A DNA stretch of 43,604 nucleotides from Coriobacteriia bacterium. GTDB taxonomy: Bacteria; Actinomycetota; Coriobacteriia; Anaerosomatales; Anaerosomataceae. The notes under the pieces are model-generated. The model ran no database searches. It was not told the origin of the DNA and saw only the letters and a list, made by a program, of their open reading frames with translations. The position numbers and the translations under genes are program-made. Location: NCBI GenBank assembly GCA_016938135.1, contig JAFGVD010000046.1, positions 1 through 43,604 of the forward strand, given 5' to 3'. This document shows positions 3,318-43,558 of the stretch, one piece after another. Within the stretch, counting starts at the first letter, position 1; each line of letters starts with the position of its first letter.

Positions 3318-3401
3318 CGTCAACTGAGCATCGAGGGGAGCGGTCAGACCCGTTCCGTGCTACCATAAGCCGCCCGAAGGCTCGCTCGTACGGAGGCATC
3401 A

Positions 3402-3776
3402 ATGGCGGCATCACCTGATAGCAGCAGAAAGTCCCGCAGGGGACGTAGCGACTGGGTACCCGGACAGGGCGCTGAAGCTCGAAAGAGCCAGACGTCCGGT
3501 CACCAGTACGTTGAGCAGTGCCGACGCCGCGCTATGGCCGTCAAGTCCAAACGCGAGTTCGGACAGTTGTCCATAGACACGCTGGTATACGTCGCCCGCG
3601 AACATCGTCTGACCACGATCCGGCTTGGTGCCGTCAAAGCCCTTGAAGCCGGGGACACCCGCAAGCATCTTGCTGCGCTCAGGTCCATCGAGCGCACCCC
3701 TGAAGCGGGACCACCCACGAGGGCAGCCGCTCATCAGGCGGGGGATATAGTACAGGCTCGTCTCGACGCGATGTAG
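3402..3776 (+). CDS. Small basic hypothetical protein
   Basis: I do not recognise this 124-residue protein. A GGAGG ribosome site at 3392-3396 sits 5 bases before the ATG, which is why I prefer it over the overlapping minus-strand frame. The first ~45 residues are rich in Ser, Arg, Lys and Gln and look disordered. Residues from about 58 to 105 are predicted by eye to be helical, with a pattern (L-V-Y-V-A-R-E-H-R, then T-I-R-L-G-A-V-K-A-L-E-A) that resembles a HEAT-like helical pair. It lies alone between gatB and a convergent minus-strand pair of genes. Function is unknown and existence is moderately supported. Confidence 0.5.
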   Translation: MAASPDSSRKSRRGRSDWVPGQGAEARKSQTSGHQYVEQCRRRAMAVKSKREFGQLSIDTLVYVAREHRLTTIRLGAVKALEAGDTRKHLAALRSIERTPEAGPPTRAAAHQAGDIVQARLDAM

Positions 3777-41101: not shown

Positions 41102-41130
41102 CCCGAGACTGGGACCAAACTCGTCTCGGG
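41102..41130. repeat. 8-bp inverted repeat just upstream of the integron integrase
   Basis: CCCGAGAC (41102-41109) and GTCTCGGG (41123-41130) pair perfectly around a 13-base centre. The right arm overlaps the GGGAG ribosome site of the integrase gene. It could restrict integrase translation, bind a regulator, or be a genome-wide REP-like element; the interval 41065-41137 holds nothing else clear. Confidence 0.5.
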
Positions 41131-41137
41131 AGCGTAG

Positions 41138-42178: not shown

Positions 42179-42199
42179 GTAGCACATATATGCTACACT
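42179..42199 (+). promoter_or_regulatory. Promoter with overlapping palindromic operator for the toxin-antitoxin pair
   Basis: GTAGCACATATATGCTAC (42179-42196) is a near-perfect palindrome with 6-base outer arms. It overlaps a TACACT -10-like box (42194-42199). This is where an antitoxin dimer would be expected to repress its own promoter. No clear -35 box is seen. The interval 42101-42178 is GC-rich and contains no GTT triplet, so no canonical attI core is visible there. Confidence 0.5.
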
Positions 42200-42230
42200 A
42201 CCAATGACCCCTGACGATGGAGGCAGCGAG

Positions 42231-42458
42231 ATGACCCAGGGAGTGAAGTTGCGCAAGGCCGGAGGCTCGATTGCCGCTACCCTGCCGAAGGATATGGCGG
42301 ACAGGCTCAAGCTTGCTGCCGGCGACACAGTGATAGCCATCGAGACCGAACGCGGAATCCTGCTGACCCCGTACGACCCCGACACTGAAGAAGCGCTTGC
42401 GCTCGCCACAGAGGTTGGACGCACATACCGCAACGCATTGCGCGAGCTGGCCCGGTAG
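42231..42458 (+). CDS. AbrB/MazE-type antitoxin
   Basis: The 75-residue protein has the swapped-hairpin AbrB pattern: K-L-R-K-A-G-G-S-I-A-A-T-L-P-K-D-M, then G-D-T-V-I-A-I-E-T-E-R-G-I-L-L-T-P-Y. Residues after about 45 form an acidic helical tail that probably wraps the toxin. ATG at 42231 follows GGAGG at 42219-42223; an in-frame ATG at 42204 is too close to the promoter. The Doc-type toxin gene begins 6 bases after the stop. The palindrome at 42179-42196 is the likely target for autoregulation. Toxin-antitoxin pairs with their own promoter are common in integron arrays, where they stabilise the array (known). Confidence 0.88.
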   Translation: MTQGVKLRKAGGSIAATLPKDMADRLKLAAGDTVIAIETERGILLTPYDPDTEEALALATEVGRTYRNALRELAR

Positions 42459-42464
42459 GCCGCA

Positions 42465-42875
42465 GTGCAGACAGGAGAACCGCGTTGGGTCTCGCGCCTT
42501 GTCGTCGATGCGATCCAGACCGACGTGCTACTCGCCTACGGTGGAATGCCGGGACTACGTGACGAGAACCTTCTCGAATCCGCGTTGGCACGCCCAAGAC
42601 AGCGCTATGCTTACGAGCCGAGCATCGACCTCGCGGCACTCGCTGCAGCATATGGGTACGGACTCGCCCGCAACCACCCCTACAACGACGGCAACAAACG
42701 AGTTGCGTTCGTCGTGATGGCGGTATTCCTGGGACTGAATAGACTCGAATTCACAGCGAGCGAGACCGAGGTAGTCATCGCGATCGTAAGGCTCGCGTCG
42801 GGTGAACTCGACGAAGAGGTGCTGGCCGACTGGATCAGGTTGCACACCGAGAAGCGCTCTCAGTCAGCCCGCTAA
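42465..42875 (+). CDS. doc: Doc/Fic-family toxin (death-on-curing type)
   Basis: The 136-residue protein has the Doc core G-G-M-P-G-L-R-D-E-N-L-L-E-S-A-L-A-R-P, and the Fic motif N-H-P-Y-N-D-G-N-K-R-V-A-F with the catalytic His and the nucleotide-binding Asp, Asn and Arg. Phage P1 Doc phosphorylates EF-Tu and stops translation (known). This protein has Gly where P1 Doc has Ala in the motif, as many chromosomal Doc proteins do. The start is GTG at 42465. The TAA stop (42873-42875) falls inside the left end of the proposed attC-like site, a common arrangement in cassettes. Confidence 0.92.
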   Translation: MQTGEPRWVSRLVVDAIQTDVLLAYGGMPGLRDENLLESALARPRQRYAYEPSIDLAALAAAYGYGLARNHPYNDGNKRVAFVVMAVFLGLNRLEFTASETEVVIAIVRLASGELDEEVLADWIRLHTEKRSQSAR

Positions 42876-43029
42876 TGCTGTTACGCAGACTGCGATTCGC
42901 CATTACGCAGAAAGATGAGTTGGGATATAGTTCCTGCAAGGGGAGTTGTGTGCCGCTCAACTACTGTGACTACATTGAAGGCTCAAGTTGCAGCAGCGCG
43001 CCACGCAGTCTGTAGAATCATTGTTAGGT
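42869..43029 (+). other. attC: Degenerate, long attC-like site (or attI) after the toxin-antitoxin cassette
   Basis: The right core box GTTAGGT (43023-43029) fits GTTRRRY exactly. An inner stem is provided by CAGACTGCG (42886-42894) and CGCAGTCTG (43004-43012), a perfect 9-bp inverted repeat. The left box would be the poorly matching CGCTAAT around the toxin stop. A consensus-fitting GCTCAAC also occurs at ~42954, giving a shorter alternative of about 76 bases, but with weaker pairing. The site could instead be attI, with the toxin-antitoxin pair lying between integrase and attI. The right boundary is well supported, the left is not. Confidence 0.55.
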
Positions 43030-43044
43030 GGATTGGAGGGGCGG

Positions 43045-43455
43045 GTGTCGGCACCGAGGCTGTCGGGGTTTGCTCGTGTTGGAGTAGCAGGGGCTGTGAT
43101 TCTGGCGTTCACCTCAGTCGTTGTAGGAGTCCGTACGTCGGTCGGTATCCCGCTGTTCGTGGCCGCCTGTGTGTGTCTGGCCGTCAGCGGCCTGTTCACC
43201 AGTTCCGAGGTTCGCCACGCCATGGATGCCGTTGAGGCGCACTTCCCTGGGCGTCTGGATTCCTACAGTGTGGTGCGCTGGAATCCTCTCTGGACGCGAA
43301 ACGAGGACCGCCTACGACATGCCATGGCGGATCCAGTGGTCCAGGCAGTGGAGAGCCTTAGGCCACAGCTTGGTCGGGCTGTCGATGCCATGAGGGTTGG
43401 TCTGGTGGTATGGGCGCTCTGGTTCGTGCTGATCATCATCATGAGTTTCAGCTGA
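43045..43455 (+). CDS. Cassette-encoded small membrane protein, unknown function
   Basis: The 136-residue protein has three hydrophobic segments: two near the N-terminus (about 12-29 and 33-52) and one at the C-terminus (V-G-L-V-V-W-A-L-W-F-V-L-I-I-I-M). A charged central region of about 55 residues lies between them. I do not recognise it. GTG at 43045 is preceded by GGAGGGG and falls inside the cassette. The frame stays open further left to 42988, but that part would cross the recombination site. The gene fills the 529-base segment between two core sites, the typical one-gene cassette layout. No promoter is obvious, so expression may depend on upstream read-through. Confidence 0.72.
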   Translation: MSAPRLSGFARVGVAGAVILAFTSVVVGVRTSVGIPLFVAACVCLAVSGLFTSSEVRHAMDAVEAHFPGRLDSYSVVRWNPLWTRNEDRLRHAMADPVVQAVESLRPQLGRAVDAMRVGLVVWALWFVLIIIMSFS

Positions 43456-43472
43456 GGGCCCGAACTGTAACC

Positions 43473-43558
43473 ACCTAACCAGCGCATCCAGCAGACGCGG
43501 CAAGCGATAGACTGAAGGCAGGGGATGGGCGCGCTGCTGATGCGCTCATACGTTAGGC
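43473..43558 (+). other. attC: attC recombination site (well formed)
   Basis: The left core box ACCTAAC (43473-43479, fits RYYYAAC) and right core box GTTAGGC (43552-43558, fits GTTRRRY) are complementary at 6 of 7 positions. Inside them AGCGCATC-C-AGCAG (43481-43494) pairs with CTGCTGATGCGCT (43534-43546) over 13 bp. One unpaired base at 43489 is left over, the extrahelical base by which IntI recognises the strand. Unpaired spacers (1 and 5 bases) separate the boxes, as in known attC sites. The cut is expected between G43552 and T43553. The total of 86 bases is within the usual attC range. Confidence 0.93.

Follow-up and report, generated by a model that had tools for sequence, protein, structure and literature searches.

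We analysed a 43,604-nucleotide stretch of DNA from a Coriobacteriia bacterium (assembly GCA_016938135.1, contig JAFGVD010000046.1, our C28), referred to here in its entirety as the window. Near one end it carries, in this order, the integrase gene intI, a MazE-Doc toxin-antitoxin pair, an attI site, a gene cassette (cassette 1) and an attC site at 43473-43558 (Table 1). Judged by its sequence, the window holds part of a chromosomal integron, with an intI that includes the integron-specific segment, an attI and the first attC of an array. We conclude with near certainty that 43473-43558 is the attC that closes the first cassette of this inverted integron, carried by a member of one Coriobacteriia order. 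Handles beginning with C, G and L denote contigs, genomes and loci.

Table 1. Features of the integron in the window
Feature	Position	Strand	Basis
intI, integron integrase, 320 aa	41138..42100	+	TIGR02249, 477 bits (cut-off 265); alignment to VchIntIA (2A3V)
Palindrome, TAGCACATATATGCTA-type	42183..42197 (about 42181-42197)		sequence; similar palindrome before the same pair in L129 and L138
MazE/doc_partner-type antitoxin	42204..42458	+	PF04014, 6.5e-10; TIGR02609, 2e-13, slightly below its cut-off
Doc (Fic/DOC) toxin	42465..42875	+	PF02661, 6.9e-16; TIGR01550, 1.5e-19
attI	about 42880-43029	+	upstream repeat TTACGCAGACTGCG at 42880-42893; core ACGCAGTCTGTAGAATCATT followed by GTTAGGT, crossover G 43023; conserved in relatives
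Gene cassette 1, 529 bp crossover to crossover	43024..43552	+	GTT of attI to GTT of attC R' box
Cassette 1 gene, small predicted membrane protein	43045..43455	+	GTG start, GGAGG at 43035-43039; start codon inferred
attC of cassette 1	43473..43558	+ (top strand given; bottom strand expected to fold and recombine)	boxes, stem score, fold, sibling model, covariation, extrahelical bases
R'' box ACCTAAC (fits RYYYAAC)	43473-43479		sequence
Stem arms	43481-43494 and 43534-43546		sequence
R' box GTTAGGC (fits GTTRRRY)	43552-43558		sequence

Residues 9-318 of IntI align to the Vibrio cholerae integrase IntIA (VchIntIA, 2A3V; E = 1e-91), and the alignment includes the RHH histidine pair, which stacks on the extrahelical T. 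The gene is open over its whole length and is the only one in the genome above the TIGR02249 cut-off. The attI site was located by comparing the DNA behind intI in relatives, in which two elements recur: the upstream repeat CTTACACAGACTGCA and a core whose end reads AGAATCATT or GGATACTAGTT followed by GTTAG. In the window this site lies behind the toxin gene, 780 bases behind intI, and its position defines the extent of cassette 1, which attC closes. The longer ORF (open reading frame) at this place, from 42988, has no match in Pfam or NCBIfam and was ruled out as the cassette gene because it starts inside attI.

The attC site and its siblings

A first-pass annotation, made from the sequence by itself, had recognized an attC at 43473-43558, and both core boxes and the unpaired spacers that it described are present exactly as given. 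Its 13-bp inner stem needs trimming: the arms are there, and the count includes an outermost pair, A43481-T43546, that is not conserved among sibling sites, so that the conserved stem consists of 7 + 5 + at least 2 bp around two extrahelical bases. One of these is an unpaired C, a G on the bottom strand, which had been assigned to 43489 and may equally be its neighbour at 43488, since two Cs are adjacent here. The other had been overlooked, and the description of the site as having a single extrahelical base was mistaken: A43495, a T on the bottom strand, likewise has no partner. The bottom-strand G and T are separated by five or six bases (T-N5/6-G), and thus an extrahelical G and T stand about six bases apart on one arm, as in other members of the attC family. 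The G is retained in 13 of 13 sites of the genome and in 26 of 30 among relatives, the other four having C, and the T in 9 of 13 and 26 of 30, respectively. The central spacer is lopsided, its two sides measuring 6 and 2 nt, a trait common to the lineage, and its first base is G in the great majority of sites. The further claim that the site reproduces every structural rule of an attC was right about the boxes and the bulge and overstated with respect to the 6/2 asymmetry.

Among all RYYYAAC-to-GTTRRRY intervals of the window, the full stem score of 12/12 is reached at 43473-43558 only, and in 40 dinucleotide-preserving shuffles of the window, scored on both strands, it never exceeds 10. The box pattern alone was discarded as a test for attC sites, as it gives 36 hits per strand against 23 in a reversed control. 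An interval at 42955-43029 was considered as a second attC and rejected: its arms are unpaired (7/12) and its right end is the attI core.

The site has at least 32 siblings on three other contigs of the same genome. A BLAST search with the window end returned 18 further matches, in a single orientation per contig, and a covariance model built from 13 sites of the genome, aligned by sequence and including 43473-43558 itself, recovered 33 sites at E < 0.03; within each contig, all of them lie on the same strand. Thirteen of these are expected by construction and 20 lie outside the model; they are distributed as 1 on C28 (43473-43558, the best match, with 96.9 bits and E = 3e-21 over the whole genome, being itself in the model), 23 on C34, 7 on C33 and 2 on C9. 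The AAC and GTT of the boxes are invariant, and the spacers are unpaired throughout. The 23 sites on C34 delimit 22 cassettes, which range from 357 to 2355 bp and in most cases hold one or two ORFs. Content varies from one cassette to the next: the sites stand in tandem, in the same orientation, with differing genes between them. Also on C34, two attCs of identical sequence (L013 586-670 and 1119-1203) enclose a 533-bp cassette with a membrane-protein-like ORF.

The stems covary. In the 13-site alignment, 90% of cells are paired and 8 pairs are changed on both sides; none of 500 shuffles does as well, and sliding the register reduces pairing to 29-37%. In a second set of 30 sites from the window and its relatives, 12 pairs (56 cells) are changed on both sides, again with none of 500 shuffles as good and with 31-40% pairing in slid registers. 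Given these siblings, the covarying stems and the integrase nearby, the identification of the site as an attC is upheld: it is a genuine and typical attC, ordinary when taken alone. The search for similar sites that had been proposed as a check succeeded both in this genome and across the order, as described below.

From known integrons we infer how IntI would bind, choose a strand, cut and move cassettes. The bottom strand of attC, when single-stranded, would fold into a hairpin on which the two extrahelical bases (G and T, as T-N5/6-G) and the lopsided unpaired spacer would position IntI; the integrase would then cut at the R' box, at top-strand G43552, and the cassette would be joined to attI (G43023) or to another attC.

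Some points weigh against this interpretation of the site and its integron. Each strand folded alone forms a hairpin (z = -2.5 for the bottom strand and -3.1 for the top), and in the energy model used the bottom strand is not preferred (-18.8 versus -21.9 kcal/mol), so that strand choice would need to rest on the extrahelical bases. The window contig stops 46 bases past attC, as expected if near-identical attCs break the assembly, and the site is probably linked with the C34, C33 and C9 arrays. The ability of the element to recombine, predicted from its anatomy (an intact IntI, attI and attC array), is well supported on that basis.

Two other explanations of the site were considered. The hairpin is stable and starts 17 bases past the stop codon of the ORF at 43045-43455, and in known integrons a role in ending transcripts has been suggested for the hairpins of attCs (PMC8876359); it might accordingly be a transcription terminator or other structured element ending that ORF, with the boxes a coincidence. 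Yet no T-run follows the stem, the siblings share invariant boxes, unpaired spacers and conserved extrahelical bases, the sites form a tandem array beside an integron integrase, and an Rfam search returned no family match, all of which makes this reading extremely improbable. We regard it as somewhat less far-fetched, if still quite improbable, that the site descends from a true attC and is now a relic in an organism whose integron no longer works. Some C33 sites are weak matches (E 0.01-0.03) and the intI of one relative (G033) contains a stop; against this, the window's own intI is intact over its full length with the integron-specific segment, the attC at 43473-43558 has full stems and has kept its two extrahelical bases, cassettes differ from one another in content, and compensatory changes preserve the stems.

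A toxin-antitoxin pair between intI and attI

The integron is inverted in layout: intI points toward the array, and intI and the cassettes are on one strand with the array downstream. We compared the window with the 20 platforms from relatives in which intI and attC are both in reach, and in all 21 the attCs are on the intI strand, downstream of the gene; the classical layout was seen in none. The one clear exception to the strand rule is a single site in L140. This attC (3343-3427, G028) lies on the opposite strand beside a minus-strand toxin-antitoxin pair, as though a piece of a cassette had been inverted. On distant IntI loci, a generic stem scan gave few sites and served solely as a hint of orientation.

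Directly before the intI start, at window 41103-41134, lies an inverted repeat, CCCGAGAC/GTCTCGGG, and an inverted repeat of other sequence occupies the same place in L129, L131, L137, L141 and L156; these repeats perhaps control intI expression. The palindrome upstream of MazE-Doc is, from its sequence, likely the operator/promoter region of the pair.

In ordinary platforms the attI core, wherever it can be placed, starts 113-212 bases after the intI stop; in 11 others this distance is 625-1664 bases, and each of these 11 carries a toxin-antitoxin pair in the gap. The pairs belong to different families: MazE-Doc in the window and L129, YefM-YoeB in L130, both of these in L138, BrnTA in L123, L127, L132, L133 and L151 (with BrnT split over two frames in L151), and, on the opposite strand in L140 and L157, an HI1420-type antidote accompanied by a RelE/Gp49-like toxin. 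Even close relatives differ: the other genome of the window's genus (G001, L123) has BrnTA in place of MazE-Doc, and the IntI tree places L132 and L138 as sisters, again with different pairs. In L127, L132 and L133 the attI upstream repeat precedes the pair and the core follows it. We left L147 out of this count because its pair, which lies behind intI and is followed by an attC, is an ordinary cassette. In L139, on a contig that is broken off, an unrelated ORF occupies the gap, and in L134 (2642-3271, G017) a MazE-Doc pair much like the window's own is found past the far end of the attC array, in the opposite direction.

We tentatively propose, at somewhat less than even odds, that the inverted integron is old and near-constant across the order, and that the intI-attI gap serves as a niche into which toxin-antitoxin modules of varied families have repeatedly settled, tying the cell to the platform and not to single cassettes. 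The pairs may in this way guard the integrase platform, a hypothesis modelled on the toxin-antitoxin cassettes of Vibrio superintegrons. It is less likely than not, in our view, that MazE-Doc is merely a first cassette that has lost its attC and stands outside the platform. Relatives of such pairs do occur as attC-bounded cassettes (a RelE-type cassette at C34 9096-9843 and a PIN toxin in L130), from which the gap pairs may descend, and the arrangements in L147 and L140, with an attC behind or beside the pair, fit such an origin. However, a cassette inserted at the attI core, where cassettes enter, should come to lie behind that core, whereas in the window both repeat and core are behind the pair; the full attC model finds no attC between intI and attI there, and none between pair and attI in the 11 platforms.

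Distribution within the Coriobacteriia

The order that carries the integron is probably Anaerosomatales/OPB41. Among 61 genomes of the order, 47 of them of good quality, intI (E <= 1e-60) was found in 41, including 37 of those of good quality, and attCs matching the model (E <= 1e-5) in 53 and 45, respectively. In a class-wide sample of 298 Coriobacteriia genomes intI was present in 46, all from this one order, and in 0 of the approximately 230 genomes sampled from other orders. Groups of attCs without an integrase may be common in the order, and contig breaks could explain part of this; in G008, G011 and G015, a few attCs of the same family are clustered on contigs separate from the one that carries intI.

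In a quick IntI tree, most of the order's integrases form one group, within which sequences from other phyla are interspersed. The group of EMTCatB1 (G003), a genome that NCBI classes in Coriobacteriia, stands apart; more than one acquisition is therefore likely. The leu genes and other neighbours in the window are not adjacent to intI at distant loci, and a search of plasmids with the attC gave no match.

In a 2022 survey with IntegronFinder 2.0, Actinobacteria yielded a single intI lacking attCs and a few attC clusters but not one complete integron, and its authors thought that these rare traces may be recent acquisitions (PMC9024848); a review counts Actinobacteriota among the phyla with integron detections (PMC8618304). 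Our literature search returned no report of integrons in Coriobacteriia or of toxin-antitoxin pairs between intI and attI, which is weak evidence that they are new, as most subscription journals were outside the search. As far as the literature searched shows, the order-wide distribution and the pair of changing family between intI and attI in 11 platforms are new. Integrons are near-constant in one order of Actinomycetota, a phylum thought to be almost without them, and the covariance-tested attC model provides a tool for finding the cassettes of this order, a large and little-studied pool in environmental bacteria. The platforms also lend themselves to a natural test of the idea that toxin-antitoxin modules next to attI prevent loss of the integrase platform.

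Comparison with known integrons

Published attCs have two or three extrahelical bases, of which G and T are particularly conserved (PMC2727003), and T-N6-G is the arrangement best excised by the integrases tested (PMC3053210). The extrahelical bases of the window site and their spacing match those of class 1 integron attCs and of the V. cholerae repeats, VCR (PMC2727003, PMC3053210), whereas the stem GCGCATC-C-AGCAG and its variants are the lineage's own, and the 6/2 spacer kept by nearly all siblings probably sets it apart as well. The chromosomal integrons of Treponema likewise have intI transcribed toward attI, in the direction of the cassettes (PMC3607928), but they belong to another phylum, and the window's integron differs in having its own attI motif and, in some members, a toxin-antitoxin pair between intI and attI; in the quick IntI tree, the group containing the IntI of the window does not include the spirochaete integrases.

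Vibrio superintegrons also contain type II toxin-antitoxin pairs, with their own promoters and held to stabilise the array (PMC11023631, PMC8876359). Those cassettes are bounded by attCs, whereas pairs of the window type lack an attC of their own and sit between intI and attI, or between intI and the attI core. The traces reported by IntegronFinder 2.0 come from the same phylum (PMC9024848), and while no complete integron was seen there, here intI and attCs together are near-constant within one order. The system surrounding the window site is a variant of the known integrons: it has the inverted layout, is near-constant in a single order of actinobacteria and recurrently carries a toxin-antitoxin module between the integrase gene and attI.
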